Source: a virus. From it: a DNA stretch of 45,767 nt. The DNA lies in IMG/VR virus record IMGVR_UViG_3300042373_000656, positions 1-45,767 of that record. One strand, given 5' to 3'. The notes beneath the pieces were generated by a model. The model searched no databases. It was given only the letters and a program-made list of their open reading frames with translations, and was not told where the DNA came from. The position numbers and the translations under genes are program-made. Positions 198 to 45,767 of the stretch are shown one piece after another. Each line of letters begins with the position of its first letter. Position 1 is the stretch's first letter.

Positions 198-668
198 TTA
201 CTTTTTGAACATCCAATCCCAATACTTGCCTTGGTCAAATGTATTTTCTTGGGTTACGGTGGGTTTTTCGGCTTCGGGCTTAGGACCAGCATGCTTTGGA
301 GCACCAAAAAGTGCACCCTTGGCAAACAGCCCAAGGCCTCTCAGCCAGTGGGCGTAATTGGTAGGGTCAAATTGCATTGCGGTAGCACCAGTTCCAGCAG
401 GTGCGTTTCCACTTCCACCCATTGAAGCAACCCACTCATCATACGCAGGAGTTCCCATCTCGGGCATCTCGTAAGGATTGGTGGGGTCGGCTACAATCTG
501 GGGAAGGTCTGGTTCGTTCGGGTCCATGTCACCCATGTCTTCTCCACCCAACTTGTATTGCTGGAAAGGCTTAGCCCAAGGAACGCCCTGCCAATTGTCA
601 TTTGGATTAGGTTTGGCGTTTGGATTAAAGGACGGACCGCCAATAGTAGGGTAAGTAAAAAAACTCAT
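198..668 (-). CDS. Proline/glycine-rich late protein, 156 aa
   Basis: Function unknown. The protein is rich in Pro, Gly, Asn and Asp, with little predicted regular structure in its first 100 residues. It has a short hydrophobic stretch near residues 105-122 (HWLRGLGLFAKGALFG) and an aromatic C-terminus (YWDWMFKK). Near residues 27-34 it carries WQGVPWAK, closely matching WKGTPWAK in the 1159-aa protein of the same late unit (41751-45230), so the two may share a binding partner. The start overlaps the stop of 665-1150 by four bases. Position at the head of the late operon, before terminase, suggests a virion or packaging role, but this is inference only. Confidence 0.75.
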   Translation of the reverse strand: MSFFTYPTIGGPSFNPNAKPNPNDNWQGVPWAKPFQQYKLGGEDMGDMDPNEPDLPQIVADPTNPYEMPEMGTPAYDEWVASMGGSGNAPAGTGATAMQFDPTNYAHWLRGLGLFAKGALFGAPKHAGPKPEAEKPTVTQENTFDQGKYWDWMFKK

Positions 669-1150
669 TTCTTTAAAGGTAAGCCACGAACATAATGGGA
701 GGCTTGTTTGGAATCAACCAAAACCTTATCTTTGACCCTATACTTCTTGTTATCTCGGCAAATGGCGATGACCTTTATGCCGTTTTCGTGCTCAACCTCA
801 AGCAGACGGCTATTCGGATACCAATTACTGACCACTTTACCTTCCCACTCAAGTCCATATAGGTCTTGAACGGTATTAGTGACCGCCAGTTCTTCCAATC
901 TTCCGCTTCCTTCGGGGTCTTTACCCAAATAATCAACGATTTTGTCGGCTTCCTTAAGCCCTTTAAACCATTGGTGCAGGAATTCGACCCCCAAGTCAGT
1001 CCAAATGATGGTTCTCAAATGCTCGGGCTTCTTGGAAGGCTTCCTAAACCACAATTCCTTACCATCAAAATTCGCATGGAGAGCACGGACATCCCTTAAG
1101 TCAGCAACGCTCCACCCATATTCGGCAGACAATTCCTTTTCGGTGTGCAT
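665..1150 (-). CDS. First gene of the late block, possible DNA-binding protein or small terminase subunit, 161 aa
   Basis: Not recognised as a named family. The N-terminal 35 residues (ELSAEYGWSVADLRDVRALH) look like a helix-turn-helix of the 'read the cue, then bind' type. The C-terminal 60 residues are beta-rich with a basic, SH3-like pattern (VEHENGIKVIAICRDNKKYRV). It is the first gene downstream of the late control region, and no other clear small terminase subunit lies near the large subunit, so TerS is a reasonable guess. A late regulator is the alternative. The ATG at 1150 has no Shine-Dalgarno sequence. Confidence 0.7.
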   Translation of the reverse strand: MHTEKELSAEYGWSVADLRDVRALHANFDGKELWFRKPSKKPEHLRTIIWTDLGVEFLHQWFKGLKEADKIVDYLGKDPEGSGRLEELAVTNTVQDLYGLEWEGKVVSNWYPNSRLLEVEHENGIKVIAICRDNKKYRVKDKVLVDSKQASHYVRGLPLKK

Positions 1151-1193
1151 AACCCCACCGTAACCAGCAGTTTTCCAATGTCAACCCCTGTAT

Positions 1194-1232
1194 TTTATCC
1201 TCTTTTCTATCCACTATTCTATTGGGGGAAGT
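1194..1232 (-). repeat. Dispersed ~39-bp element, copy B
   Basis: Read on the minus strand this begins ACTTCCCCC, continues AATAGAATAGTGG and ends GAAAAGAGGATAAA. The copy at 10184-10223 on the plus strand matches at 35 of 39 positions with one extra base after ACTTCCCCC. The A-rich half could be an unwinding element. See the findings for interpretation. Confidence 0.6.
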
Positions 1233-1238
1233 CCAGTA

Positions 1239-1290
1239 CACCCCCCTAGTGTAATCTATTTCACCCCCCACAGGAAATAGGCTTCACCCC
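1239..1290. repeat. Three C-rich boxes with exact 23-bp spacing
   Basis: CACCCC occurs at 1239-1244, 1262-1267 and 1285-1290, the first two extended to CACCCCCC. Twenty-three bp is a little over two helical turns, so a protein bound to each box would sit on nearly the same face. The arrangement resembles iterons or an activator array in front of the late operon. Confidence 0.55.
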
Positions 1291-1363
1291 TGCCTTTTTA
1301 ACGAAAAAATGTACATGTGTGAATGCGTGTGAAAAGCGGATAGCACAAACCAAGAAGCCCCCC

Positions 1364-1379
1364 CGCCCCCGAAGGGGCG
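1364..1379 (-). terminator. Hairpin terminator of the first early unit
   Basis: On the minus strand CGCCCC-TTCG-GGGGCG forms a six-pair GC stem with a UUCG tetraloop. It is followed by more G residues and a moderately U-rich tail (CTTCTTGGTTTG). It lies about 35 bp past the last early frame (1414-1470) and before the late control region. The lack of a clean U-run lowers confidence in fully intrinsic termination. Confidence 0.55.
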
Positions 1380-1413
1380 AGAGAGCGTTGGTTTTGGGCA
1401 ATGCCGTGACAGG

Positions 1414-1470
1414 TCAGACGCCTTTGATGAACAGGGCGATGACGAGCACGAGCAGGATGGTCACGAGCAC
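1414..1470 (-). CDS. Tiny hydrophobic peptide, 18 aa (GTG start)
   Basis: A GTG-initiated frame overlaps the end of 1461-1685 by ten bases and encodes 18 residues (core TILLVLVIALF), long enough for one membrane helix with a single Lys near the C-terminus. The frame could be fortuitous. Its support is positional: the two other early transcription units also end with a very short membrane-peptide frame (1856-1960 and 4610-4678). No Shine-Dalgarno sequence is visible. Role unknown. Confidence 0.35.
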   Translation of the reverse strand: MLVTILLVLVIALFIKGV

Positions 1471-1685
1471 TTCTTCACGACCCACTCGTTGACTTCTTTG
1501 AGCACACGCTCGTTCTCCACGACCTGTTCGAGGACCGTGGACTGCTTGGCGTTGTCGGGGTAGTAGGTCGTGCCCTTGATGACCTTTCGGGCGGCCCACA
1601 CATAAGCCTGTTGGGCTTTGACGAGGGCGTTGACCTGCTTGCGGGTGAGAGCCTCGGAGGAGGCGTTGGCGTTCTTGGGTTTCAT
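1461..1685 (-). CDS. Small early protein, 74 aa
   Basis: First gene after the early promoter at 1712-1738, with ATG at 1685 behind a short C/A-rich leader (ACAACCAACC). The product is largely helical and charged (SEALTRKQVNALVKAQQAYV, then NERVLKEVNEWVVKK), without Cys pairs or membrane segments. No family is recognised. A longer overlapping frame to 1788 would run through the promoter and is rejected. As an immediate-early small protein it may act on host functions, but nothing in the sequence shows this. Confidence 0.7.
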   Translation of the reverse strand: MKPKNANASSEALTRKQVNALVKAQQAYVWAARKVIKGTTYYPDNAKQSTVLEQVVENERVLKEVNEWVVKKCS

Positions 1686-1711
1686 GGTTGGTTGTGCCTA
1701 GCGGCGACTTA

Positions 1712-1738
1712 TTTATACCATGGCTTGGGCAAACACAA
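1712..1738 (-). promoter_or_regulatory. Early promoter P1 (extended -10)
   Basis: On the minus strand: TTGTGT (1733-1738), a 15-bp spacer ending in CCATGG, then TATAAA (1712-1717). TGG directly before TATAAA supplies an extended -10. Spacer and hexamers closely match two other promoters at 4479-4505 and 7976-8002, including the shared core CCCAAGC(C/A)ATGGTAT. An inverted-repeat-like GTCG-CCGCTAG-GC follows at once. It drives 1461-1685. Confidence 0.75.
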
Positions 1739-1809
1739 CAGAGGCATCGTGCGTTTGTATTGATGCATGCTGTGCTTGTTGTTCCCATTCCACTTGTTGT
1801 TGTTAGATG

Positions 1810-1841
1810 CGTTGAGTTGCCTCAACACCGTTAATTTTTTT
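1810..1841 (+). terminator. Terminator-shaped element read on the plus strand, copy 1
   Basis: On the plus strand GTTGAG-TTGC-CTCAAC is followed by ACCGTTAATTTTTTT, a textbook intrinsic terminator shape. All nearby genes are on the minus strand, so it faces the wrong way. Related elements lie at 4578-4607 and 8073-8104, each just past the end of a minus-strand unit. Confidence 0.5.
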
Positions 1842-1855
1842 GACCTTTACAGTAA

Positions 1856-1960
1856 TTAACTGAATAGGTGTTTCCAGATGAGATAGAGGCCGTTGATTAA
1901 TGCCCAGCAGATTAATTCTGCGGAGATAATTACGATGCCTGTCGCAAGGAAATTAATCAT
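1856..1960 (-). CDS. Small membrane peptide, 34 aa
   Basis: ATG at 1960 overlaps the stop of 1953-2252 (AATGATTAA), so translation is probably coupled. The peptide has one long hydrophobic segment (FLATGIVIISAELICWALI) and ends in IWKHLFS. A single transmembrane helix with a basic cytoplasmic tail is likely. It is the last gene of the second early unit and parallels the tiny membrane frames that close the other two units. Such peptides in phages can act as inhibitors or exclusion factors, but no known family is recognised. Confidence 0.65.
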   Translation of the reverse strand: MINFLATGIVIISAELICWALINGLYLIWKHLFS

Positions 1961-2252
1961 TCCAGTTAGTCTCCTCGTTGTCCTCATCGGAGTCATCAGC
2001 CTTGTCGTAGGTGATGCACATGAGGAATGATACAGCCTCGCTGTAATCCTGTGCGTGATTGTTGACGACTTCGACAATACGCTGGGAGACACCAAGGTCT
2101 ACCTTACGCCATGCTTTGGAAGCCGCACCGATGAGAGCAAACACATTGCCATCAATGTTGCTCCAATCGACAATCGGATACTTGTGAGGGCTGATGCTCG
2201 GAGGAATTGCTAGTTCAGCGAGCATAGCGTTGATGTTTTCGTTCTTGGACAT
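1953..2252 (-). CDS. Small phage protein of unknown function, 99 aa
   Basis: The core around residues 30-75 (NIDGNVFALIGAASKAWRKV and VVNNHAQDYSEAVSFLM) has the pattern of short conserved phage proteins with a GN-hFALhG motif followed by a helical repeat, though I cannot name a family. The C-terminus is strongly acidic (DDSDEDNEE). It sits after the ribbon-helix-helix-like gene and is coupled to the membrane peptide below it. A soluble cytoplasmic early protein is the most that can be said. Confidence 0.75.
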   Translation of the reverse strand: MSKNENINAMLAELAIPPSISPHKYPIVDWSNIDGNVFALIGAASKAWRKVDLGVSQRIVEVVNNHAQDYSEAVSFLMCITYDKADDSDEDNEETNWND

Positions 2253-2287
2253 GTTATGTCTTGGGTTGTTGGGTTGTTGTTTGTGGG

Positions 2288-2812
2288 TTATTTCTTCTTG
2301 CCCTTGCGAGCAGTCAGATTGTGAGGAGGGAGGATGCCCTTCATGCGGAGGCGGTGCTGGTCACGAACCATCGCCATGTTCTTGGGAAGCGGAGGCTTGG
2401 CGTGAGCGGAGAGAATACGCTTCTCACGCTCGACAAGTTCCTGCTCACGCACCATGTCGATAGTGCCACGCAACAAGCAGTTAACGATGACCTTCATGCG
2501 GCTCGTGTCACGCTTGGTTGCGATTTCGGTGAGCGTGTCGAGGAGTTCGACAGGCACTTCGACCATGACAGGCTTCACACCATTCTTGATGTATCGAGCC
2601 TTCATGGAAGCGTTGCGTTTCTCACGCATCGCTTTCTTGGCGGCCTTCGCATCACGAAGGATTTGACCTTTCTGTTCGTTGGTTAGCGTTTCCCATTCAG
2701 CAGGACGAGCCACGACTTGGGGAGTCGTGGACACGAACGGATGCGTGGATTTGATTGCCATCTTGCTCTCGATGTTGGAGAGAAGGTTGGCGAGGTTACC
2801 GATGTTTTTCAT
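2288..2812 (-). CDS. Ribbon-helix-helix-like DNA-binding protein, 174 aa
   Basis: The start is set at ATG 2812 (MKNIGNL) behind a CCCAAACACCC-type leader; longer frames upstream would overlap the preceding gene. The middle is very basic (AKAAKKAMREKRNASMKARY). Residues ~94-135 have the beta-helix-helix pattern of RHH regulators (VMVEVPVELLDTLTEIA, then RMKVIVNCLLRGTID). The C-terminal 40 residues are basic (KGILPPHNLTARKGKKK). A DNA-binding regulator is inferred, and it is one candidate for binding the inverted repeats after the early promoters. The RHH call rests on pattern only. Confidence 0.7.
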   Translation of the reverse strand: MKNIGNLANLLSNIESKMAIKSTHPFVSTTPQVVARPAEWETLTNEQKGQILRDAKAAKKAMREKRNASMKARYIKNGVKPVMVEVPVELLDTLTEIATKRDTSRMKVIVNCLLRGTIDMVREQELVEREKRILSAHAKPPLPKNMAMVRDQHRLRMKGILPPHNLTARKGKKK

Positions 2813-2867
2813 GGGTGTTTGGTTGGGTTTGGGTTTGGTTTGGGTTGGGGGACAAAGAAACTGGTGA

Positions 2868-3275
2868 TTACCACCAGCAGTAATAGTAAACTTCGTAGCC
2901 TTCATCGATTGCGTTGAGAGCCTTGTCGATGAATGCGTGGTCGAGTGCGATGTCTTCTTCACGAGATGTGCCCCAGAAGAAACCTTCGCCTCGTTCAGCA
3001 TACGCATTGCCGTTCGTTTGGAGATGCATTCGCAACGAGAGAATGTCATCACGAGTGAGCGGCATGGGCACACAGTTGAAGACTTCGGTGCCGCCCTTGC
3101 GGACATACAAGTCTTCCATCCACTTGTTTAGGTCAGCGTGTTTACGCCAAGTCATCAAGTGGATGCGGCCTTCTTCAAGAGCGTTCATCTCATCGTCCGT
3201 GAGTTCACGCTCGGTGATGAGAGCAAGGTGTGCAACCTTCGGCTCAACTGCCCAAGAGTTTTGGTCGAGTCCCAT
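2868..3275 (-). CDS. Early protein of unknown function, 135 aa
   Basis: The start is chosen at ATG 3275 (MGLDQNSW), four bases after the stop of 3280-3456; the longer frame would overlap that gene. The sequence is mixed alpha/beta and acidic, with several aromatic residues at the C-terminus (EGYEVYYYCWW). The stretch VPMPLTRDDILSLRMHL looks like a strand-loop-helix. No catalytic motif or membrane segment is seen. It lies in the second early unit with tightly packed small genes, typical of phage host-takeover loci, but that role is not shown. Confidence 0.7.
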   Translation of the reverse strand: MGLDQNSWAVEPKVAHLALITERELTDDEMNALEEGRIHLMTWRKHADLNKWMEDLYVRKGGTEVFNCVPMPLTRDDILSLRMHLQTNGNAYAERGEGFFWGTSREEDIALDHAFIDKALNAIDEGYEVYYYCWW

Positions 3276-3279
3276 GTGA

Positions 3280-3456
3280 TTAGGAGCGGTTGTGGGTTTC
3301 GATGCAAGCAACCCAACCATCGATGAAGAGTTGTGCGTCCTTCTTGCGAGAGAACGAATACTCGGAGTCGAGTTGGTCATCGCTGTTGCAGATTGAAACT
3401 ATCCATTGCTTGCCACGCTTGATGGGAAGCATGTCGATGAGGAAGTTATTCTTCAT
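3280..3456 (-). CDS. Small early protein, 58 aa, paralog of the upstream gene
   Basis: ATG at 3456 follows the stop of 3462-3728 by a few bases (TAATCACC-ATG). The fold pattern is strand-strand-helix: QWIVSICNSDD, then EYSFSRKKDAQLFIDGWVAC, ending IETHNRS. The block E(Y/H)xFxxxxxAxxFIxG(W/F)xx(C/A)IE(T/C) is shared with the 88-aa protein just upstream, so the two look like a tandem duplication with the copy shortened. No known domain is recognised. Confidence 0.7.
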   Translation of the reverse strand: MKNNFLIDMLPIKRGKQWIVSICNSDDQLDSEYSFSRKKDAQLFIDGWVACIETHNRS

Positions 3457-3461
3457 GGTGA

Positions 3462-3728
3462 TTAGAGCGTGTCTTCGTTGGAGCAGACATCCTCGATAAC
3501 ACCATCGCTGGTGCGAGCGGCAATCGCCCACTTCTTATGGGTGCATTCGATTGCGGTGCAGAAGCCCATGATGAAAGCGTTGGCTTCTTCGTGCGTGTCG
3601 AACTCGTGCTCATCATGCACATCACCCTTGGGTTCGTTGTAGATGCGAACGATGAACAGGGTGTAGTCAGCGTTCGTCTTCGGAGTCGGCACCATGTTGA
3701 TACCGATGAGCGTCTTGTTGAGTTTCAT
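3462..3728 (-). CDS. Small early protein, 88 aa, paralog of the downstream gene
   Basis: Begins MKLNKTLIGINMVP at ATG 3728, after a spacer containing a strong hairpin (3786-3808) and a C/A-rich stretch. Residues 22-64 carry strand-strand-helix (YTLFIVRIYNE; EHEFDTHEEANAFIMGFCTA; IECTH) matching the 58-aa neighbour. The C-terminal ~25 residues (AIAARTSDGVIEDVCSNE) are absent from the paralog. Function unknown; no membrane segment or metal-binding motif. Confidence 0.72.
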   Translation of the reverse strand: MKLNKTLIGINMVPTPKTNADYTLFIVRIYNEPKGDVHDEHEFDTHEEANAFIMGFCTAIECTHKKWAIAARTSDGVIEDVCSNEDTL

Positions 3729-3785
3729 GTGTGAATTGCCTTGGCGGCGGTGGGTTTTGTTGTGGTTTGTTGGTTATGCAATCAT

Positions 3786-3808
3786 GCATGAGGGGTCGGA
3801 CCTCATGC
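3786..3808 (-). other. Intercistronic hairpin in the second early unit
   Basis: GCATGAGG (3786-3793) and CCTCATGC (3801-3808) form a perfect eight-pair stem with a seven-base loop. It lies between the first (3824-4393) and second (3462-3728) genes of the unit. There is no U-run after it, so it is more likely a processing or RNA-stability element, or an attenuator that lowers expression of downstream genes, than a terminator. Confidence 0.5.
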
Positions 3809-3823
3809 AGTCATGCGAGATGA

Positions 3824-4393
3824 TTAGGCGTTGTTGGTGTCTTCGCTGGTGTAGAGTTCGCTGGCATCAGCATACTCGATGTTCTCCTTGTTCTTGTGCT
3901 CCCAGAGAGCGATATCGCCATCACGAGCAAAGACATCCTGCTCGTGCTTGACGGCATCGACATGGTGCAACCAAGCGTCAACGCCATTGGCTTTGTCCCA
4001 GTTGCAATGGACACCGTCTTCGCTGTTGTTGCCGTGCTTGATGAGGAACTCCTTGGTCTCGTGCGTCATGCACGCCAAGAAATCCTTGAAGCGGCAGACG
4101 GAATAGATGCGGAAGTTCTTGTTATCGAAAGCCGTCATGCGGAACTTGATGACAGCATCGCTATACTGATGGCGATGAGCCTTCAAGACGGAGGCATAGG
4201 CGAGCGAGAACTTGAAGTCGCCTTGGATGACTTCGGTCTCGACACGGTCATACTTCTTCATGAAGTCGGAAGTGTGCGAGGTGGTGATGACGAGCACGAT
4301 GAACGAAACGCACGGCATGCGTTGGACGCTGTCGAGGTGTTCGATGACATGGGGCTTGTCGTTATTGTTGCTGGTGGATTGAGCGTTGCTCAT
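3824..4393 (-). CDS. Early protein of unknown function, 189 aa
   Basis: First gene of the second early unit, ATG 4393 after a leader of repeated CCCAAA units. Residues ~25-40 form a hydrophobic strand (MPCVSFIVLVITTSH). The middle alternates strands and helices (KFRMTAFDNKNFRIYSVCRF), and the C-terminal third is acidic with many His residues (WLHHVDAVKHEQD). It looks like a soluble alpha/beta protein. No recognised family or active-site motif. Confidence 0.72.
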   Translation of the reverse strand: MSNAQSTSNNNDKPHVIEHLDSVQRMPCVSFIVLVITTSHTSDFMKKYDRVETEVIQGDFKFSLAYASVLKAHRHQYSDAVIKFRMTAFDNKNFRIYSVCRFKDFLACMTHETKEFLIKHGNNSEDGVHCNWDKANGVDAWLHHVDAVKHEQDVFARDGDIALWEHKNKENIEYADASELYTSEDTNNA

Positions 4394-4437
4394 GTTGGTG
4401 TTTGGGTTTGGGTTTGGGTTTCGTTTCAGCCAGCGGG

Positions 4438-4474
4438 TTCACCGTAGTTGGTGAATTGTCGCTAACATCGACAA
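4438..4474 (-). promoter_or_regulatory. Tandem inverted repeats in the early leader, copy 2
   Basis: Directly after promoter P2, on the minus strand: TTGTCG-ATGTTAG-CGACAA (4456-4474), then immediately TTCACC-AACTAC-GGTGAA (4438-4455). Both arms are perfect six-pair stems. The same pair occurs after P3 at 7935-7971 with compensating or wobble changes, which supports either RNA hairpins or operator palindromes. Confidence 0.6.
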
Positions 4475-4478
4475 AGGA

Positions 4479-4505
4479 ATAATACCATGGCATGGGTAGA
4501 TGCAA
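4479..4505 (-). promoter_or_regulatory. Early promoter P2 (extended -10)
   Basis: On the minus strand: TTGCAT (4500-4505), 15-bp spacer ending CCATGG, then TATTAT (4479-4484), giving TGG-TATTAT. It closely matches P1 and P3 in both hexamers and spacer. It drives the operon 4393 down to 1856. The leader holds two inverted repeats and then CCCAAA repeats before ATG 4393. Confidence 0.75.
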
Positions 4506-4521
4506 TGGGTTGGTGGTTGGT

Positions 4522-4580
4522 AAAAAGGAAGCGTGTAGACGCAGAGGGTGTCGCACGAAGCGTTCTCTTAATCTACACGC
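4522..4580 (-). terminator. Terminator of the third early unit
   Basis: On the minus strand GCGTGTAGA (rc of 4572-4580) pairs with TCTACACGC (rc of 4531-4539), nine pairs around a long loop, followed by TTCCTTTTT (rc of 4522-4530). It sits between the end of the unit running from P3 and promoter P2, so it insulates the two. The stem and U-tract are clear; the 32-base loop is larger than usual. Confidence 0.65.
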
Positions 4581-4607
4581 TGAATCGCCTTAACAGCGAA
4601 TTTTTCT
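4578..4607 (+). terminator. Terminator-shaped element read on the plus strand, copy 2
   Basis: On the plus strand CGCTG (4578-4582), loop AATCGCCTTAA, CAGCG (4594-4598), then AATTTTTCTAG. GCTGAATCGCCTT is identical at 8074-8086. Like the copies at 1810 and 8073 it faces against the direction of the local genes and overlaps the minus-strand terminator at its edge. Confidence 0.5.
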
Positions 4608-4609
4608 AG

Positions 4610-4678
4610 TTAATCTTTTTCAGATAGCACGATGACGATAACAATCGTGCTAACGACTACTTCAACTAGGATGGACAC
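4610..4678 (-). CDS. Tiny membrane peptide, 22 aa (GTG start)
   Basis: GTG at 4678 directly follows the TAA of the DUF932 gene (TAAGTG), an arrangement suited to coupled translation. The peptide is mostly Val, Ile and Leu (ILVEVVVSTIVIVIVL) and ends SEKD, so it can form one membrane helix or strand. Too short for family assignment, and chance cannot be excluded. The case rests on position: it closes the third early unit as 1414-1470 and 1856-1960 close the others. Confidence 0.42.
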   Translation of the reverse strand: MSILVEVVVSTIVIVIVLSEKD

Positions 4679-5608
4679 TTAATTCAGCGAAGGCGTATTG
4701 GTCAGTACGGTCTCGAAGAAGGACTCATCGACCATCAATCGATTGAGCGTGGTAAGTGCACCAGTATTGATGCGGTCACTCACTTCAACCTGTCCACGGT
4801 CATCATAGTGGCGAGTGACTCGCTCCGTGATGGCATTGTATAGGTTGTAGAGATTGCGTCCGCTGTCTTCAGCATACGAAGGGCGTTGCCAGACTTGCGA
4901 CACTTCCTTGTAGAAGCGTTCGCTCATCGTGCCCTTGTGCACGAGATGTTGCAGGATGACTTCACCCTCACGCTGTTTGATGTCTCGGTCAGCGAGAGCA
5001 CCGAACATTCGGAGAGAGTCTTCAAACTGCGTGACGGCTTGTGCGATACCCAGCGACAAGAACTCAAGGCTGATTACGCCTTTGTGTCGCTTGTTAGCGG
5101 AGATTTCGTTGGTCAGCGAGGTCATGCCGTTGGTGCACACGAGGCGAAGCATCCCGACACGGAAGAGTGCTTGAGAAGAACCGTCATGCGAATTGCGGAC
5201 GCTGATACGCATCGCAAGTTCGTCACCCTTGTTCATCTTCGTACCCTTCACGAACCTCGTGAAGTTGCCGAATGTGTAGTTGGTGCTCATGCGAGCACCG
5301 TAGTTCCAGACAATCGTGTCCTTCTTGAAGTTCGACAGGCCTTGGTTGTGAAACGCAAGTTCAGTCTTATCAAGCAGGTCACAATGCTGGATGACGGAGT
5401 AGTGCTGGGAGACTTGTCCCACCACGACACCGTTGTCATCACGCCTGTTGCACCAGTAGTTCGTAGGAGTTCCGTCTGCTGTGAACAGCGGCTCTTGCGA
5501 TACGGTGAAGCATGCGTTGTCATCCGTGTCTTTAAGGCCATCGAGATAGTTCTCCATGGTCTTCTTGTGGATGATGCGGTTGAGTTCCTTCTTATCTTGT
5601 TGTTTCAT
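4679..5608 (-). CDS. DUF932 family protein, 309 aa
   Basis: Resembles the DUF932 / phage-plasmid-like protein family found in many phages and plasmids. Characteristic parts are the VVVGQVSQHYSVIQHCDLLD segment near residues 60-80, FGNFTRFVKGTK with MRISVRNSHDGSSQAL in the middle, and RLVCTNGMTS near residue 160. The family's biochemical role is not established. ATG 5608 follows an AACCCAAAACCCAAAACAAC leader with no Shine-Dalgarno. It is the last full-sized gene of the third early unit. Confidence 0.85.
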   Translation of the reverse strand: MKQQDKKELNRIIHKKTMENYLDGLKDTDDNACFTVSQEPLFTADGTPTNYWCNRRDDNGVVVGQVSQHYSVIQHCDLLDKTELAFHNQGLSNFKKDTIVWNYGARMSTNYTFGNFTRFVKGTKMNKGDELAMRISVRNSHDGSSQALFRVGMLRLVCTNGMTSLTNEISANKRHKGVISLEFLSLGIAQAVTQFEDSLRMFGALADRDIKQREGEVILQHLVHKGTMSERFYKEVSQVWQRPSYAEDSGRNLYNLYNAITERVTRHYDDRGQVEVSDRINTGALTTLNRLMVDESFFETVLTNTPSLN

Positions 5609-5629
5609 GTTGTTGTTTTGGGTTTTGGG

Positions 5630-6190
5630 TTAGCCGTTGGCGGGAGTGCCTTCGGAAGGTTCTTCGTCTTTGCGTACACGAGAGTCGTAGAAGCGAGGCT
5701 TAGTTGCCTCGGCATCCGCAATCTTTTTGATTGCTTCGTATAGCGGTAGTTTTTCGTACTGCTCGTGGTCTTCGTGGTTGCGAGAGAATGACGCAAGGTC
5801 ATCACCTGCTTCACGAGAGAGGGCACGAATTAGCCAGTCGTTCCATTCACGCTTGGACTTGTGAGAGACATTAGTCCACAAGCCCCACAGATTGATAATG
5901 TCTGTGGGCTTTAACTTGTGCTTCTTGTCTCCGACATGCCATGTGTTGCTCCATCCAAGGTCATTAAGGATGTTCAAGCGGCGGTGACACTCTTTGAAGT
6001 TGTCTTCATTGAGCGGGTTGTTTGCCGTGTCGTACTGTAACGCAAGTTGCGTCCATACGAAACAGGTTGCCTCGACCCAGTTGCAGTTTTCTCCTTCACT
6101 ATCTTTGTACTGGAAGTCTTCCAGTTTCTTGGGTTGGGCGTGATGTTTAGCCGTGTATTCGTCACACGGAAGGTGCCAATCTAGGCTCAT
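5630..6190 (-). CDS. Early protein of unknown function, 186 aa
   Basis: Starts MSLDWHLP at ATG 6190 behind an ACCAAACACAAACACAAACACC leader. Rich in Trp and charged residues, mostly helical (NWVEATCFVWTQLALQYD; DNFKECHRRLNILNDLGW; KREWNDWLIRALSREAGDD). Asn-Asp-Leu-Gly-Trp and Trp-Gly-Leu-Trp turns recur. The last 30 residues are charged and Pro/Glu-rich. No named family recognised. It lies between the DUF932 gene and a small acidic protein in a colinear unit. Confidence 0.72.
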   Translation of the reverse strand: MSLDWHLPCDEYTAKHHAQPKKLEDFQYKDSEGENCNWVEATCFVWTQLALQYDTANNPLNEDNFKECHRRLNILNDLGWSNTWHVGDKKHKLKPTDIINLWGLWTNVSHKSKREWNDWLIRALSREAGDDLASFSRNHEDHEQYEKLPLYEAIKKIADAEATKPRFYDSRVRKDEEPSEGTPANG

Positions 6191-6214
6191 GGTGTTTGTG
6201 TTTGTGTTTGGTTG

Positions 6215-6553
6215 TTACTTGGTTTCTTCATCTTCCACACGGTCGATGAAAGTGTCTCGATACTCGTCAACGATGCGGACAACCTTGATGACTGTCGCAT
6301 CTACTTCGGAGTTTTCGGAAATGAATACTAGGTCTTTCGACAGACCGTGAGAGCAAGGGTCGAAGTTCACAGACCACTTGCCTGTGTGCTTAACCCATTG
6401 CTTGAACTCATGCATCAACTCTTGGGACATCGGGCTTGGGATGCCCAGATGAATTCCATCTTTGTTGATGAATGTGGTTCGTACTTTTACGAGGAGAGTT
6501 ACCTCCGTGTATACTGAGGACAGCATGTCGCTGTATTGTGCTTCTTGTTCCAT
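6215..6553 (-). CDS. Early protein of unknown function, 112 aa
   Basis: The start is placed at ATG 6553 (MEQEAQYSD), which follows the upstream stop as TAACATG; a longer frame would overlap the GP88-like gene. The pattern is beta-rich (YTEVTLLVKVRTTFI; KDLVFISEN; DATVIKVVRIVDEY) with an acidic C-terminus. It could be a small OB- or SH3-like fold, which is inference only. No cysteine pairs, membrane segments or catalytic motifs. Confidence 0.7.
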   Translation of the reverse strand: MEQEAQYSDMLSSVYTEVTLLVKVRTTFINKDGIHLGIPSPMSQELMHEFKQWVKHTGKWSVNFDPCSHGLSKDLVFISENSEVDATVIKVVRIVDEYRDTFIDRVEDEETK

Positions 6554-6554
6554 G

Positions 6555-7307
6555 TTATTTGGTGTTGCGGGTTGGGTTGATGAATGTGTTTGGGATTGCT
6601 TCTTTCTTGCGGGCTTTGCCTTTGGCACGAAGACCGATTACTAATCCAGCACGCTTGTCTAGTTTGTATCGCATGTCTGGGTTTAGAAAACGGAGGTCGT
6701 GTTTGTCTCCATCGAGCACGGTGTAGCCGTTCCATAGTTTCGGTAGCCTCTTGTTACGAGGCGTGTCGAAGACTACGGAAACATTGCCACCTTTCTCCAG
6801 CACGGTGAACGACTCATCAAGCCTACCCTCTGCGTGAGAGTAGGTGAGATGGTAGTTCTTCGGGCCGTATCCGTTAAGCCACATCAGAACTCTGTCTATC
6901 GATTTCGAGTAATCGTAGAATTGGATTTCTGGGAAGTTCTGGATGACGCTGTCGAAGTGCCATTGCTCGTAGATGTCCGATGTTCCGTTGAGGCGAACGC
7001 ATGGTTTCATCTTGTTCTTCTTACAGAACCGAATGTGAGCCTCGATTTCTTTGCACAGTTGCTCGATGAACTCGGCTGTATGCTTTACCATGAACTTGGT
7101 TCGCTCGATGCGAGCCTTGTTCACGCTCGGATAAACCGAAGCGTAGCCAGAGTTGTACAAGCAAAGTGCACGACAGTCGTGCGTTGCCCAACGACAAGTG
7201 TTGGCGATGCCAGATGAATTTGACGGAGCCAAATACATGATGGCAGTCCTCCAACCAAGGCTGTCACCCTTGGTCGTCTTGGCGTTATTGAATGTTAGGA
7301 GTTTCAT
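6555..7307 (-). CDS. GP88-like phage protein, 250 aa
   Basis: Start at ATG 7307 (MKLLTFNNAK), overlapping the end of the upstream gene by 23 bases. The sequence matches my recollection of the phage 'gene product 88' type. It has an N-terminal Cys cluster (C38, C45, C49 in NTCRWATHDCRALCLYNSGY), a central VRLNGTSDIYEQWHFDSV, FYDYSKSIDRV and HLTYSHAEGRLDES. It ends with GYTVLDGDKHDLRFLNPD and VIGLRAKGKA. The order of Cys cluster, strand-turn-helix repeats and TKS/YSK motif recalls a barrel-type enzyme, possibly acting on a nucleotide or nucleic acid. The biochemical activity is unknown. Confidence 0.65.
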   Translation of the reverse strand: MKLLTFNNAKTTKGDSLGWRTAIMYLAPSNSSGIANTCRWATHDCRALCLYNSGYASVYPSVNKARIERTKFMVKHTAEFIEQLCKEIEAHIRFCKKNKMKPCVRLNGTSDIYEQWHFDSVIQNFPEIQFYDYSKSIDRVLMWLNGYGPKNYHLTYSHAEGRLDESFTVLEKGGNVSVVFDTPRNKRLPKLWNGYTVLDGDKHDLRFLNPDMRYKLDKRAGLVIGLRAKGKARKKEAIPNTFINPTRNTK

Positions 7308-7896
7308 TATCGAACGGTGCGGCAGGGGTTGAATTGGCTTTGGAGTCGAACGCTTTTGCGAACAATTCCTTAATCGTCTTTTCAACCGTGTCCTTGACGA
7401 GGTCGTTAACCATCATCTTGAACCAGTCACGCTTGAGGTCATCAGCGATGGCATCGCTCATGTCGCCACGAGTCATGACATCGTCTTCGTTGAGGTGCTC
7501 GGACTTGAGCATCACATCGCTAGGACTGATGTCATCCTCGGTTAGCATGCCTTGGTCACGCCTCAGACTGCGAGCGAGTTCGTGCAGTTGAGAGCCGCTC
7601 AAACTATCGAGAGCCTGCTCGACATCGTAAGTGATGTCACGGTTGTTACAGCAGTCATCCACGATGTCGCTGAAGTCGAAGTCTTCGATTGCCGACTTGA
7701 CTGCTTCTTCGATTGCATCGCTTTGCACCTGCGTGTGTTCCTTAATCAACTCAATCACACGCTCTTCGGTAAGCGATGTGGTTGCATTGTTTGTGGTTGC
7801 ATCCGCAACCTTTTCGCCTATGGGCGTGAAGGTGATGCTGATGTTGTGGGTCATGTGCATCTCGTTAAGGAATGCACTTACTTCTTGTTCGGTCAT
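7285..7896 (-). CDS. Acidic helical early protein, 203 aa
   Basis: First gene of the third early unit, ATG 7896 after an AACCCAAAACCAAAACAACAACC-type leader. The protein is strongly acidic and almost wholly helical (ERVIELIKEHTQVQSDAIEE; AVKSAIEDFDFSDIVDDCC; DLVKDTVEKTIKELFAKAF), with likely coiled-coil segments. No enzyme motif is visible. High acidity in an immediate-early protein would fit DNA mimicry or binding to a host factor, but that is speculation. Its end overlaps the next gene start, so they are probably coupled. Confidence 0.72.
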   Translation of the reverse strand: MTEQEVSAFLNEMHMTHNISITFTPIGEKVADATTNNATTSLTEERVIELIKEHTQVQSDAIEEAVKSAIEDFDFSDIVDDCCNNRDITYDVEQALDSLSGSQLHELARSLRRDQGMLTEDDISPSDVMLKSEHLNEDDVMTRGDMSDAIADDLKRDWFKMMVNDLVKDTVEKTIKELFAKAFDSKANSTPAAPFDNETPNIQ

Positions 7897-7934
7897 GGTT
7901 GTTGTTTTGGTTTTGGGTTTGCCAGCCCCAGCGG

Positions 7935-7971
7935 CTCACCGACATTGATGAGTTATCGCTAGAACCGACAA
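7935..7971 (-). promoter_or_regulatory. Tandem inverted repeats in the early leader, copy 3
   Basis: After P3 on the minus strand: TTGTCG-GTTCTAG-CGATAA (7953-7971), then CTCATC-AATGTC-GGTGAG (7935-7952). Relative to the copy at 4438-4474, the outer pair of the second stem changes T-A to C-G and two other pairs become G-U wobbles. Stems are kept while loops change, as expected for a selected structure. Confidence 0.6.
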
Positions 7972-7975
7972 ACCA

Positions 7976-8002
7976 ATCATACCATTGCTTGGGCAAACGC
8001 AA
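7976..8002 (-). promoter_or_regulatory. Early promoter P3 (extended -10)
   Basis: On the minus strand: TTGCGT (7997-8002), 15-bp spacer, TATGAT (7976-7981) preceded by TGG. It drives the unit 7896 down to 4610. The upstream stretch 8003-8072 shows no gene or clear motif. Confidence 0.75.
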
Positions 8003-8072
8003 TGGGGGCAGACCTCAATTCCGACCAATGAAATCAAGGGTTTGCTCGCTCACGCACCCAGCCTGTTGTTGT

Positions 8073-8104
8073 GGCTGAATCGCCTTTTTATGAAAATTTT
8101 TTTA
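8073..8104 (+). terminator. Terminator-shaped element read on the plus strand, copy 3
   Basis: GGC-TGAATC-GCC followed by TTTTTATGAAAATTTTTTTAG on the plus strand. It shares GCTGAATCGCCTT with the copy at 4579-4591 and lies just past the 3' end of the minus-strand HTH gene (8125-8595). The stem is short, so its activity is uncertain. Confidence 0.4.
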
Positions 8105-8124
8105 GAATTCCTTTTGCCCAAAAA

Positions 8125-8595
8125 TTATCCCGCAGGAGGAGGAGGGTCTGAATTCGGAAGGTCAATGACTTCACCCTCAAGCATCTTGTTTAGGTGTTCG
8201 TGACTAATTCTGAGCCTGTTCTCAACAATGACGGTTGGCTGGTCTTGGAGCACGGCAATCTTATCAATCAAGATAGCCAGAGAAACTGGCATCATGCCAA
8301 TCGGGATGTCGTTGATTTCGTTATTGAGGCGGTTAGCACCCTTCATGACGATGTTCTTGAACAGGTCAGCGGTCTGCTTCTTGTAGTTGCCAATATCGAT
8401 GTTGCAATCGCCCATGTCTTGCCTTACAGCGACCACGGTATGGCTGGACACCTTCACTTCATCTTCGATTTCCTTCTGCGTATGGCCTTGCTCCGTCATC
8501 CAAACGATTTTCTGTTTCTTTTCTGGGTCTAACTTCTCAAGAGAAACAGACTTGCCATCGTTTTTGATTCTGTCTGGCTTAGACTCGTATTCCAT
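8125..8595 (-). CDS. Helix-turn-helix protein, regulator or small terminase candidate, 156 aa
   Basis: Residues ~22-58 form a clear helix-turn-helix (KQKIVWMTEQGHTQKEIEDE, then VKVSSHTVVAVRQDM). A helical core with GANRLNNEINDIP, LAILIDKIAVLQDQPT and ISHEHLNKML follows. The tail is Pro-rich (DPPPPAG). ATG 8595 is preferred over GTG 8604 because a promoter-like pair (8602-8630) would start RNA almost at 8595. The gene is divergent from the replication operon with almost no gap, fitting a regulator. The HTH plus helical core is also the layout of some small terminase subunits. Confidence 0.75.
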   Translation of the reverse strand: MEYESKPDRIKNDGKSVSLEKLDPEKKQKIVWMTEQGHTQKEIEDEVKVSSHTVVAVRQDMGDCNIDIGNYKKQTADLFKNIVMKGANRLNNEINDIPIGMMPVSLAILIDKIAVLQDQPTVIVENRLRISHEHLNKMLEGEVIDLPNSDPPPPAG

Positions 8596-8601
8596 TTTTA
8601 A

Positions 8602-8630
8602 CACATAACATGCACGAATTCCTAGGTCAA
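8602..8630 (-). promoter_or_regulatory. Possible promoter of the HTH gene
   Basis: On the minus strand TTGACC (8625-8630), 17-bp spacer, TATGTG (8602-8607). Transcription would start at about 8595, the ATG itself, giving a leaderless mRNA. The promoter lies inside the first codons of the divergent rusA gene, so the two genes could interfere. Confidence 0.4.
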
Positions 8631-9065
8631 ACAGAAACTTGGCTGGTTATCCCCCATGAACCGCCTACGAGCACCCACCAAGCGGCCCTAAGAGTCCTAA
8701 AGTCCAGCACAGGCAAGATGTTTGTGGGGAAGATGAAGAACAGCAAGATTAAGGGCTGGATGCGTACCTTTGAGCCTTGGGTGGCTGAATCTAAGCCCCA
8801 GCATCCCATGGAGGGGCCAGTCGAGGTTCACATCAAGTTGCTTTACAGCCCTCCCAAATACTTGCTCAAAAAAATTCACAGGCTCAAGACCCTGCCCAAG
8901 ACCACCAAACCAGACTGCGACAACGCTGTCAAGGTTATTTTGGACTTGTTCACAACTCACGGATACTGGCTTGACGATTCACAGGTCTGGAGTATAACCA
9001 TTGAGAAGTACTGGAGCATCGAACCATCGGTGCAGGTACTCTTCAAACACACAAAACAACAATGA
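8610..9065 (+). CDS. rusA: RusA-family Holliday junction resolvase, 151 aa
   Basis: RusA family endonuclease that cuts four-way DNA junctions as a dimer. Visible signatures are the N-terminal strand with VIPHEPPTSTHQ; KPDCDNAVKVILDLF (residues 100-114), holding the acidic pair D102/D104 and K108; and LDDSQVWSI (121-129) with D122/D123. Length is near the family norm of about 120-150. It is the first gene of the plus-strand replication operon, and its stop overlaps the next start (ATGA). In context it would resolve branched intermediates made by the exonuclease and ERF annealase, or trim DNA before packaging. Confidence 0.9.
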   Translation: MHEFLGQTETWLVIPHEPPTSTHQAALRVLKSSTGKMFVGKMKNSKIKGWMRTFEPWVAESKPQHPMEGPVEVHIKLLYSPPKYLLKKIHRLKTLPKTTKPDCDNAVKVILDLFTTHGYWLDDSQVWSITIEKYWSIEPSVQVLFKHTKQQ

Positions 9066-9841
9066 ACCCACAAGTACTAAACATCACGGAGGCCGAGTAC
9101 CGCTCGCTTCCTCACCTCAACGCATCGAAGTTTAAGGCCTTCTTTAAGTCGCCTTACCACTTCTCTAAACAGGAGTCTCCCGAAGAGACCGAAGAGATGC
9201 GTATCGGCACGGCAGTTCATGCCCTGCTCCTTGAACCGAACACCTTTGCTGGCAAGTTCGCCTACGCTCCTGTCGGCCTTGACAGGCGTAAGACGGAGGA
9301 CAAGCAGAAGTATGCTGAGTTCGTTGCCGCATCCAGCGGTAAGGTCGTCCTTAAGGGCGAGTCTCGTGAGATTGTCGATGGCTGTGTGAACGCCATCTCG
9401 TGCCACCCTACGGCTGTTAAGATTATGCGTAAGTGCGACACCGAGCAGGTGGTCGTTGCTGACCTTGTCGAGGGCGTTACCTGTAAGGGCAAACTGGACT
9501 TGATGTGCGTCCCTTGTGCCGTCTTGGCAGACATCAAAACGACCAGCCGAAGTGCCGACCACAAGGCCTTCACCTACGAGGTGGAAGACCGCCTGTACTG
9601 GCTACAGGCAGGGTTCTATGCCCTGCTTGCCGAGGCCATGTACCAGAAGGAGTTCAAGTTCTCGTTCATCGTGGTCGAGAAGGAGCCGCCCTTTGGTGTG
9701 GCGGTGCATGCCTTCTCTCCCGAACTGATGAAGCAGTGTAAGGATAAGGTTCGCCTGTTGCTCACGGAGTACAGCCATTGCCAGACCCACAATGCGTGGC
9801 GTGGCATCAATGACTCCGTCATCTCAAGCCTCCGCATCTAA
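9062..9841 (+). CDS. RecE-like PD-(D/E)XK exonuclease, 259 aa
   Basis: Resembles the C-terminal nuclease domain of RecE (exodeoxyribonuclease VIII-like, PDDEXK_12). Motifs in order: GTAVHALLLEP with H53; GKLDLMCVP with D146; LADIKTTS with D157 and K159 forming the D-x-K core; and YWLQAGFYALLAE with Q182. Length suits a stand-alone phage exonuclease. It would resect double-stranded ends to give single strands for the ERF protein encoded downstream (12220-12900). The start is ATG 9062 after ACACAAAACAACA, without a Shine-Dalgarno. Confidence 0.9.
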   Translation: MNPQVLNITEAEYRSLPHLNASKFKAFFKSPYHFSKQESPEETEEMRIGTAVHALLLEPNTFAGKFAYAPVGLDRRKTEDKQKYAEFVAASSGKVVLKGESREIVDGCVNAISCHPTAVKIMRKCDTEQVVVADLVEGVTCKGKLDLMCVPCAVLADIKTTSRSADHKAFTYEVEDRLYWLQAGFYALLAEAMYQKEFKFSFIVVEKEPPFGVAVHAFSPELMKQCKDKVRLLLTEYSHCQTHNAWRGINDSVISSLRI

Positions 9842-9842
9842 C

Positions 9843-10484
9843 ATGAGTCCAAAGTTTACTGGCGTATGGGTTCCAAAGGAAGTCTTGGAACACGAGGGTC
9901 TCACTGTCACCGAGAAGGTGGCTTATGGGATTATTGACTCTCTGGATGGGGAGGACGGTTGCTACGCCTCCAATGGCTACCTAGGCCGTATCTTGGGGGT
10001 ATCCCCGAGGCAGGTGAAGAACATCGTCAACGCCCTGCTGGAGGCTGGCCTTATCACCCGACAGGTGGAGGCCAACCAGCACGGCTCTGTGCGGTATCTG
10101 CACACGGTAGCCAAGAAGGCCTTGGTCGAGGTAACCAATTTCCCTAGGGCTGGGAAATCTGTTGCACCCGAGGAGGGAACTCTACTTCCCCCTAATAGAA
10201 AAGAAGATAAAAAAGAGGATAAACCTACCCTAACCCTTCCTTATGGTGAGCCTTTCCAGTTGGCTTGGGAGAAGTGGGTAGCATACAGGATTGAAATCAA
10301 GAAGGCCATGAAGCCCACCACGATGCGTGAGCAGTTGTCCATGCTCGCAGGATGGGGTAGCGAGTCGAAGGCCGTGAACTCAATCAACAAAAGCATTGCC
10401 ATGGGCTGGCAGGGGCTTTTTGCTGACAACGCAGTCAAATCCAAACCAACACTAACTAACAACGACCATGCCAGAGGTTTCTAA
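9843..10484 (+). CDS. Winged-helix replication initiator / replisome organiser, 213 aa
   Basis: The start is set at ATG 9843 (MSPKFTGVWVPKEV), one base after the upstream stop; a longer frame would overlap the exonuclease. Residues ~20-90 form a winged helix (LTVTEKVAYGIIDSL; NGYLGRILGVSPRQVKNIVN; LLEAGLITRQ). A charged linker (NRKEDKKEDK) follows, then a C-terminal domain with AWEKWVAYRIEIKK and SINKSIAMGWQGLF, the layout of lambda O/DnaD-type initiators that recruit the helicase loader. The A-rich linker DNA (10184-10223) may itself be the origin and has a near copy at 1194-1232. It pairs functionally with the DnaC-like gene. Confidence 0.85.
   Translation: MSPKFTGVWVPKEVLEHEGLTVTEKVAYGIIDSLDGEDGCYASNGYLGRILGVSPRQVKNIVNALLEAGLITRQVEANQHGSVRYLHTVAKKALVEVTNFPRAGKSVAPEEGTLLPPNRKEDKKEDKPTLTLPYGEPFQLAWEKWVAYRIEIKKAMKPTTMREQLSMLAGWGSESKAVNSINKSIAMGWQGLFADNAVKSKPTLTNNDHARGF
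10184..10223 (+). repeat. Dispersed ~40-bp element, copy A, inside the initiator gene (possible origin)
   Basis: ACTTCCCCC-T-AATAGAA followed by an A/G-rich half ending GAGGATAAA. It matches 1194-1232 (minus strand) at 35 of 39 positions with one inserted base. As in lambda O, an A-rich segment inside an initiator gene is a typical origin location. Part of the match could reflect Lys/Glu/Asp codons of the linker. Confidence 0.5.
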
Positions 10485-10692
10485 ACCCTCCATCAAGGAG
10501 GCTGTCTACGAAGCGTTCACGCTGAAGAAGCCAGCCTCGTTCATCCACACCAACTACGGCTACTCTTACCCTGCTATCAACAGGGCTAAGAAGCGTATGG
10601 ACATCACCCTCGTGAAGTTTCGCAAGGATGACTACATCATGCAACTGGAGCGTGAACTCCACGAACTGAGGACCAAGTACAATGTCAAGTAA
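10468..10692 (+). CDS. Small HTH-like protein, 74 aa
   Basis: Overlaps the end of the initiator gene by 17 bases and the start of the loader gene by 11. Residues ~7-45 (IKEAVYEAFTLKKPASFIHT, then YSYPAINRAKKRM) resemble a helix-turn-helix with a recognition helix near AINRAKKR. The C-terminus is a short charged helix (MQLERELHELRTKY), possibly coiled coil. It could help the initiator or loader bind DNA, judged only by location. No named family. Confidence 0.7.
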   Translation: MPEVSKPSIKEAVYEAFTLKKPASFIHTNYGYSYPAINRAKKRMDITLVKFRKDDYIMQLERELHELRTKYNVK

Positions 10693-11371
10693 GTGCGTCC
10701 ACTGCAAGTCTGACGCAGTCCCTGTGTGGGACTCGTCCAGCCAGAAGTTCAAGCCCTACATCGCTGTGTGCCTTGAGTGCTTCAAGACCAAGGAGCATCA
10801 CGAGTATCCGTTCAACTACCTTGAGGTGTTCACCAAGAACCATTGGCAGTTTGCGGCTATCCATCCGTCTACCCCGAGTGCCTTCATGGCTACTAGGGAT
10901 AGTCTGCTTTCTCCCGCTATGCAGAAGGCAATCGAGGAGTATCGCCCCAGCAAGACCCAGAGCATCCTGCTCCATGGCGTGACTGGGACTGGCAAGACTC
11001 GTGCCGCTTGGCGTATCTACAACATGGCTTGGCTCAACGCTTACCCACAGCGTTCCGAGTTCATCACCATGCGTAGGCTGGAACAGAAGATTGAGGAGGG
11101 CTTCAAGAACGGCAACCATGGCGAAGTCCTTGAGCGTCTCATCGACTGTGCCGTGCTGTGCATCGATGACCTTGGCAAGGAGCGTCTGACGGCTCGCATG
11201 GAGTCAGACCTGTTCGCCATCATCGATGAGCGTACCGCCAACGAGAGGGCTACAATTATCACCACGAATTATAACGGTAGCGGACTTTCCGAACGCTTCC
11301 AGAATTCCGAAACTGGTAGTGCCATCGTCCGTAGGTTGAAGGACTACTTCAAAATCTATGGGGCTTCTTAA
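10682..11371 (+). CDS. DnaC-like AAA+ helicase loader, 229 aa
   Basis: AAA+ ATPase that loads the replicative helicase onto DNA. The N-terminal zinc-finger pairs C5/C8 and C30/C33 precede the ATPase. Walker A is GVTGTGKT (residues 99-106), Walker B is VLCIDDLG (158-165), sensor 1 is near IITTNYNG, and a C-terminal Arg is in IVRRLKDYF. No helicase gene is present, so host DnaB is the likely client. The gene follows the initiator and a small HTH gene. The start (GTACAATGTCAAGT) lies inside the preceding gene, suggesting coupled translation. Confidence 0.92.
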   Translation: MSSKCVHCKSDAVPVWDSSSQKFKPYIAVCLECFKTKEHHEYPFNYLEVFTKNHWQFAAIHPSTPSAFMATRDSLLSPAMQKAIEEYRPSKTQSILLHGVTGTGKTRAAWRIYNMAWLNAYPQRSEFITMRRLEQKIEEGFKNGNHGEVLERLIDCAVLCIDDLGKERLTARMESDLFAIIDERTANERATIITTNYNGSGLSERFQNSETGSAIVRRLKDYFKIYGAS

Positions 11372-12219: not shown

Positions 12220-12900
12220 ATGGACGAAAACTCGTTTGAAAATCGACAGGCCAAACTTTGTGCGGCCCTTGTCAAAGCCATTGCGGAACTGGAGGATGTC
12301 CAAGCGGACTCCACCAATCCATTTCATAAAAATTCCTATGCCAGCCTATCGGCTCATTTGAAGCAAATTAAGCCAGTGTTCTCCAAGCACGGCCTTGCTA
12401 TCATCCAATGCCCTGTTGGCATTGACGGTAGCATTGGTGTCCGAACCATTGTCATCCATGAAGATGGCGGCTCGCTTGAAGCGGACTGCACCATCAAGGC
12501 TGACGATAAGATGGACGGTCAGAAGGCTGGCTCTATCATCTCGTACATCAGACGCTATTCGCTGGCCTCCGTGGCGGGTATCGCTACGGCTGATGACGAT
12601 GCAGAGACCGTCCGTGTGGCTAACACTCCTGCCCCTTCCAAGTTCATTCCTAACCCTACCTACACGCCCTCCAGCGGTGAACCCGACTTCACCCTTGCTG
12701 TGCCGTTTGGTAAGGCCAAGGGTACTGCTCTGCAAGACCTGCCTGTGAGCGACCTTGACTACTGGGCGAACAAGTGGGAGCCGAAGCCGTGGGAAAAGAC
12801 TGGTAAGGTCAACCCCAAGGACTTGCTCCTCAAGAAGTCCGCACAAGCCTTGCATGCCATGAAGTCGTCCCAGCCCTCTGGTGACGATGTACCCTACTAA
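12220..12900 (+). CDS. erf: ERF-family single-strand annealing protein, 226 aa
   Basis: ERF superfamily recombinase that anneals complementary single strands. Signatures are NPFHKNSYASLSAHLKQIKP (residues 33-52), KHGLAIIQCPV, and QKAGSIISYIRRYSLASVAG (101-120) followed by IATADDDAE. A Pro-rich linker follows. A C-terminal segment (residues ~160-225) contains AVPFGKAKGTALQDLPVSDL and YWANKWEP, resembling the small DUF3820-like 'FGKxKG' domain, so the protein looks like a fusion. It ends DDVPY, an acidic tip typical of annealases and SSB partners. It works with the RecE-like exonuclease. Leader CCCAAACCCAAAC precedes ATG 12220. Confidence 0.9.
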   Translation: MDENSFENRQAKLCAALVKAIAELEDVQADSTNPFHKNSYASLSAHLKQIKPVFSKHGLAIIQCPVGIDGSIGVRTIVIHEDGGSLEADCTIKADDKMDGQKAGSIISYIRRYSLASVAGIATADDDAETVRVANTPAPSKFIPNPTYTPSSGEPDFTLAVPFGKAKGTALQDLPVSDLDYWANKWEPKPWEKTGKVNPKDLLLKKSAQALHAMKSSQPSGDDVPY

Positions 12901-15532: not shown

Positions 15533-15837
15533 GACAACTTTCTCCGCACTCTGTCAATCAATCCTTCAAACAACTCTGGAGCAATCGCTCCGCTGATGCT
15601 GTAAAGGACAGACTTAATCATTGGTTCAATGTCCGTGTTAAAAAGGGCAAAGTACATTAGTACGCCAGTGATGCCACCAGCGGTAATGTATCTGCTCCAA
15701 CCTATGAACGAATATCGTTCCTTTGTGAGTAAAAGTCTGGCGAGCATACCAAGTGCTCCCAGCATGGCGATAATCCAACCGCCTTTGTGCAGTTCGTCAG
15801 CGATTTCTCTTAAAGATTTATCTTCCATTGTATTCAA
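15529..15837 (-). CDS. Holin, LydA/phage_holin_3-like, 102 aa
   Basis: Small membrane protein with three likely helices: GGWIIAMLGALGMLARLLL, YITAGGITGVLMYFALF, and MIKSVLYSISGAIAPELFEG. The order ALGxLARLL, GG, then GAIAPELxE resembles LydA-type phage holins. It would permeabilise the inner membrane at the set time. It overlaps the end of the 3706-aa gene; ATG 15828 is an alternative start three codons in. Followed at once by the spanin-like gene. With a Sec-exported lysozyme elsewhere, it may act more as a trigger than as an export hole. Confidence 0.8.
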   Translation of the reverse strand: MNTMEDKSLREIADELHKGGWIIAMLGALGMLARLLLTKERYSFIGWSRYITAGGITGVLMYFALFNTDIEPMIKSVLYSISGAIAPELFEGLIDRVRRKLS

Positions 15838-45746: not shown

Positions 45747-45767
45747 GGGACTTGGATTCTGCACCTT
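45641..45767. repeat. Terminal direct repeat, right copy
   Basis: Identical to 1-127. Joining the two copies restores continuous coding across the junction and gives a 45,640-bp circle. See the left copy for interpretation. Confidence 0.9.

Follow-up and report, generated by a model that had tools for sequence, protein, structure and literature searches.

To our knowledge, detailed work on paired replication origins covers very few tailed phages, mainly SPP1, for which the role of the second origin is still a model. The satellite phage P4 possesses two separated initiator-binding regions, ori and crr, in one genome, and its initiator is a primase-helicase of a family other than that of the initiator described here. 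In SPP1, oriL lies in gene 38 and oriR is intergenic in the late region, each with repeats and an unwinding element; the initiator G38P binds both and replication starts at oriL (PMC6316719, PMC3485210, PMC5615212). G38P bound at oriR was proposed to stall forks (PMC3485210), and in the SPP1 model G38P at this site also promotes the switch to concatemers through RusA, an exonuclease and an annealing protein (PMC6316719, PMC3485210, PMC5615212). Lambda has inverted-repeat iterons within gene O, followed by a strand-asymmetric AT-rich region of roughly 40 bp (PMC5043065, PMC4488673). Lambda O reportedly contacts RNA polymerase beta, and ori-lambda is activated by transcription that runs near it or leads away from it (PMC5043065). 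Extra copies of the lambda origin on a plasmid arrest lambda (PMC4488673). The lambda record places the iterons within O, with a spacing of 20-24 bp. The locus described here combines features of both systems, with one array (copy A) inside an initiator gene and a second, inverted array (copy B) before the late genes.

Genome and gene content

The window, which means the whole stretch of DNA analysed, is 45,767 nt from an uncultured phage (IMGVR_UViG_3300042373_000656). Since an identical 127-bp repeat is present at both ends (1-127 and 45641-45767), the contig probably represents an entire genome, either circular or circularly permuted. Bacterial genomes searched for relatives gave weak matches only, and therefore no host or prophage was assigned. 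An O-like initiator (phrog_678) and a helicase-loader gene (phrog_50), which together mark the lambda type, are both present in the window, while a non-exhaustive search recognised no phage DnaB-type helicase among the proteins scanned. The late cluster holds a single open frame of 3706 aa (15818-26938, minus strand). A TTGGGTTTGGGTTTG-type repeat precedes several minus-strand start codons (2809-2848, 4388-4416, 5595-5635 and 7883-7923) and is apparently a common leader replacing the usual ribosome site. GC skew, suggested in the initial annotation for mapping the origin, gave no clear origin signal in the window and was uninformative.

Table 1. Positions of the two arrays and of the genes discussed, in window coordinates.
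Feature	Position	Strand	Remarks
Replication initiator gene	9843-10484	+	213 aa; winged helix, linker (predicted disordered), C-terminal domain
Copy A dyad 1, AGGTAACCAATTTCCC	10129-10144	+	Three-dyad scan, spacing 23/23
Copy A dyad 2, GGGAAATCTGTTGCAC	10152-10167	+	Three-dyad scan
Copy A dyad 3, GGGAACTCTACTTCCC	10175-10190	+	Three-dyad scan
Copy A unwinding-element-like tract	10191-10225	+	74% AT, 79% purine
Copy B dyad 1	1272-1287	-	Outermost from late gene; 12-mer core at 1274
Copy B dyad 2, GTGAAATAGATTACAC	1249-1264	-	12-mer core at 1251
Copy B dyad 3	1226-1241	-	Adjoins AT tract; 12-mer core at 1228
Copy B unwinding-element-like tract	1187-1225	-	About 70% AT, 81% purine; non-coding
TTGACA between copy B and first late gene	1179-1184	-	28 nt before its ATG
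p2, first gene of late cluster	665-1150	-	161 aa; always directly downstream of copy B
Terminase large subunit	40132-41745	-	PF03237, phrog_2; leftward late cluster
Major head protein	35482-36570	-	phrog_1328, E 2.5e-40; late cluster
DnaC-like helicase loader	10682-11371	+	phrog_50, E 5e-26
RusA-like Holliday junction resolvase	8610-9065	+	phrog_140, E 3e-26
Exonuclease VIII-like	9062-9841	+	phrog_412, E 1e-53
Erf-like single-strand annealing protein	12220-12900	+	phrog_2324, E 3e-31

The two copies and the significance of their likeness

The initial annotation had reported a match between 10184-10223 on the plus strand and 1194-1232 on the minus strand. It was found there, with one gap, as part of a longer repeat between 10135-10223 (plus) and 1281-1194 (minus), which covers 89 columns at 73% identity with one gap. 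The repeat is inverted and its copies are about 8.9 kb apart in the window. Self-BLAST gave an E value of 6e-9 and an independent search 5e-9. To obtain a null distribution, 300 dinucleotide shuffles (150 of the whole genome and 150 local, in 300-bp blocks) were scored in the same way. The best self-matches of the shuffles averaged 21, with maxima of 28 and 30, while the real pair scored 39. The comparison with shuffled genomes, named in the initial annotation as a possible refutation, thus showed that the match is not expected by chance.

In each copy, three imperfect 16-bp dyads follow one another at intervals of exactly 23 bp, with G-rich spacers between them, and a purine-rich AT tract comes next. 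A position-blind scan for three similar dyads picked out only these two sites. In the frame aligned with copy A, copy B reads ...CCC CCA ATA GAA TAG and is non-coding. As it meets this stop at once, the DNA sequence and not Lys/Glu/Asp coding is the common part, in agreement with the earlier argument that such coding cannot explain the whole match. The possibility that copy B is a piece of pseudogene was ruled out by the same TAG.

Copy A lies in the initiator gene

The initiator matched the PHROG family phrog_678 'replication initiation O-like' (E 5.8e-20) and Pfam HTH_36. In the AlphaFold model, the winged helix-turn-helix and the C-terminal helices have pLDDT values of about 80-89, and residues 101-116 and 123-127, just where the origin array sits, fall below 50; the linker housing copy A is predicted to be disordered. 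The best PDB fold matches were 5kbj (plasmid Rep-DNA complex), 4pt7 (initiator) and 2v79 (DnaD), the winged helix resembling that of the plasmid Rep-DNA complex and DnaD. Nearly all related initiators carry the array in their linker, with a spacing of 22-23/23, and the tract of the array is kept in relatives as ATAGAA/TAAAGARGATAA... More distant initiators keep the array with other dyads (TGGCAA.., GTGCAA.., ATGCAC.., AGCCGA..). The earlier proposal that copy A occupies the initiator linker in the manner of lambda-type origins is upheld by the O-like family, the three dyads of 23-bp period, the AT tract and the linker predicted to be disordered. Copy A is very probably the main origin of the phage.

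Copy B precedes a late leader that is more widespread

Copy B was found in front of the late operon, as first described, and the gene next to it (p2) opens the leftward cluster with the terminase and the major head protein. The p2 protein showed no match in PHROG or Pfam. An HMM of p2 detected the gene in every B-bearing genome and at 16 places in genomes without B. In all B-bearing relatives TTGACA follows copy B. The segment between the last iteron and TTGACA measures 38-41 bp (12 lineages), the start codon comes 27-29 nt past TTGACA, and the sequence around is unconserved. B-less relatives mostly have TTGAC(A/T) 28-31 nt ahead of the ATG of the same late gene (distances read off the sequences), and the late leader is therefore independent of B. 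It appears to be older than copy B. In an unrooted comparison, the simplest reading is that B was placed just upstream of the leader, the other being that it was lost from the remaining lineages.

A sigma-70 promoter scan of 600-2400 gave nothing on the relevant strand, and no consistent -10 box was seen near the invariant TTGACA. The TTGAC(A/T) leader (window 1179-1150), with the ATG 27-31 nt later, occurs in almost every lineage, whether copy B is there or not; lacking a recognisable -10 box, it is possibly a late promoter of unusual type. An Rfam search around copy B found no known RNA element. In B-less relatives, tRNA genes or other sequence occupy the place of copy B, and clusters of tRNA-like genes, as judged by reading the sequences, are found there in G019, G021, G043, G046-G049 and G051. 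A conserved element, GGGGTTATTAGGGGG, occurs about 100-150 bp upstream of copy B in L046-L048 (G008), G011, G013, G027-G029, G033, G035 and G036. It is also found upstream of the same late gene in G040-G042, is followed by TGTCAAG in most, occurs in B-less genomes too and is absent from the window.

Copy B is conserved in one group of relatives

Viral contigs served as the source of relatives of the initiator, and the whole contigs were fetched and compared. Conservation of copy B, the other test named in the initial annotation, was observed in 15 of 15 related contigs spanning the site, which represent 12 lineages with initiators of about 50% identity or more; this set includes a near-identical pair (G012 and G002) and an array split by contig ends (G031). 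In these relatives B is always inverted and lies about 7-9 kb from the initiator gene. Nine contigs with similar initiators and no B end before the site (G005, G006, G007, G010, G030, G032, G034, G037 and G056). Pairwise identity across B-bearing genomes was 0.79 for the B iterons and 0.74 for the tract against 0.57 and 0.54 for the flanks, with no reading frame. One 88-kb contig, G027 (L189-L193), carries two different initiators of the family, each with its own late gene, and so represents either two phages on a single contig or an assembly fusion.

Searches with the genomes' own dyads and by self-BLAST did not detect copy B in relatives whose initiators share less than about 50% identity with the one in the window. 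As self-matching of nucleotides may overlook a copy that has diverged, absence in these clades is to be read as 'not detected'. Among them, G019, G039, G041 and G051, which look complete or circular because of their terminal repeats, keep array A with no B detected. Four cultured phages with distantly related initiators, two of them read in part, showed no second copy. Because the relatives below about 50% identity manage without it, B is not required for this type of replication. In these comparisons the second copy is present in one group of lineages and not detected in its relatives.

Dyads vary together with the recognition helix

In a set of 48 non-redundant initiators with their dyads, dyad difference tracked recognition-helix difference (r 0.70, 0 of 5000 permutations). 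The partial Mantel correlation was 0.61 with the C-terminal domain controlled and 0.48 with the rest of the N-terminal domain controlled (0 of 5000 permutations each); these permutations ran on related sequences, so the values are a pointer and not proof. As the dyads follow the recognition helix more closely than the remainder of the protein can account for, they are very probably the sites at which the initiator itself binds. Copies A and B of one genome were also more alike than A and the B of another genome (0.661 vs 0.620, 0 of 20000 permutations), a likeness to which base composition common to the genome may contribute. For instance, CATATAGTA is found in both copies of G011 and of G035, and CAGATAG in both copies of G008.

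A probable second origin and other readings of copy B

The findings are best explained by two lambda-type origins, both probably recognised by the phage's own O-like initiator, with A serving early theta replication and B a later start or barrier. The suggestion of two origins, already made in the initial annotation, finds good support in the anatomy, the conservation and the covariation. B has all the parts of an origin and not just binding sites, which makes a second origin the best single reading of it. The sequences show the anatomy, the conservation of B with its fixed place and orientation, and the covariation; binding of B by the initiator, its melting, its firing or blocking and the timing of these are predictions. 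Under the two-origin reading, an initiator dimer would probably sit on each of the three iterons of copy A, the purine-rich AT tract would melt, and the DnaC-like loader would place the helicase there. By analogy with oriL and oriR of SPP1, origin A would most likely start the early circle replication, and origin B may act later as a second start, a bound fork barrier or both. B may then help the switch to recombination-driven concatemer synthesis with the RusA, exonuclease and Erf proteins, again by analogy with SPP1. Should forks leave each origin toward its AT tract, they would move in the direction in which the adjacent early and late genes are read, and not head-on into them.

The main rival to the second origin is control of late transcription, in which the initiator on the three dyads activates or represses the late genes and late expression follows initiator level or replication. 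Such a coupling of replication to late transcription, raised in the initial annotation next to two origins, is possible, though not the favoured reading. B always immediately precedes the first late gene and has a constant spacing to TTGACA (38-41 bp, 12 lineages), the promoter-like TTGACA beside it would also fit a regulatory site, and lambda offers both contact of O with RNA polymerase beta and activation of ori-lambda by transcription (PMC5043065). But B keeps an AT tract that a simple operator does not need, the late cluster of the B-less relatives opens with the same gene, in most cases behind a leader of the form TTGAC(A/T)-N28-31-ATG, and no clear -10 box was found. A composite of late origin and late promoter, in which initiator binding and melting at B, a constant distance away from the TTGACA, tie late transcription to replication and late transcription fires B, is put forward tentatively. 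Because a lambda promoter pointing away from the origin can activate it, the late promoter could by analogy fire B late.

It is rather unlikely that B serves solely as a decoy or as a barrier to forks, binding the initiator to titrate it or to stop forks and never starting replication. The arrest of lambda by plasmid-borne origin copies (PMC4488673) and the forks proposed to stall at G38P-bound oriR (PMC3485210) are precedents for such a role, but a pure decoy or barrier needs iterons alone, and in B an unwinding-type tract is conserved without coding constraint. The position of B at the head of the packaging and capsid cluster would also suit a terminase packaging (pac) site. This is very improbable, as the terminase has no reason to bind iterons and an AT tract common to the array in the initiator gene, and its large subunit lies several genes downstream. 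That A and B resemble each other by chance, or as a side effect of runs of G and of coding rich in Lys/Glu/Asp, can practically be dismissed: a charged linker is indeed encoded by the A/G-rich half of copy A, but shuffles never exceeded 30 against 39, non-coding B is conserved in 12 lineages, and the position-blind scan recovered the arrays, which together refute it.

Comparison with SPP1 and lambda

The lambda-type origin and the SPP1-type pair are known, while the initiator group and an inverted copy locked to the putative late promoter are new. Here an uncultured group keeps the pair at a fixed place beside this promoter with an initiator differing from that of SPP1. One group keeps the pair and sister lineages are without the second copy, so that gain of a second origin becomes directly comparable. 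The initiators with their matching iterons also form a ready table for decoding how the winged helix chooses origin sequence.

The likeness to SPP1 is one of layout and gene set, taken from published descriptions of SPP1 and not from a comparison of initiator sequences. In both, two similarly organised origins, putative ones in the window, are present, one inside the initiator gene and one intergenic before or in the late part. Copy B, like oriR, lies in a long intergenic region bracketed by transcription signals, and RusA resolvase, exonuclease (5'-3' in SPP1) and annealing protein are all encoded in the window. Unlike SPP1, where the origins are 12-13 kb apart, the copies in the window are about 8.9 kb apart, copy B immediately precedes the first late gene and keeps a fixed distance to TTGACA, the iterons are dyads, and no phage DnaB-type helicase was recognised among the scanned proteins. 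As in lambda, inverted-repeat iterons lie inside the initiator gene with an adjacent strand-asymmetric AT-rich tract, and the O-like initiator has a loader gene next door. Lambda has four iterons and one origin, whereas the phage described here has three iterons and a second complete copy elsewhere.
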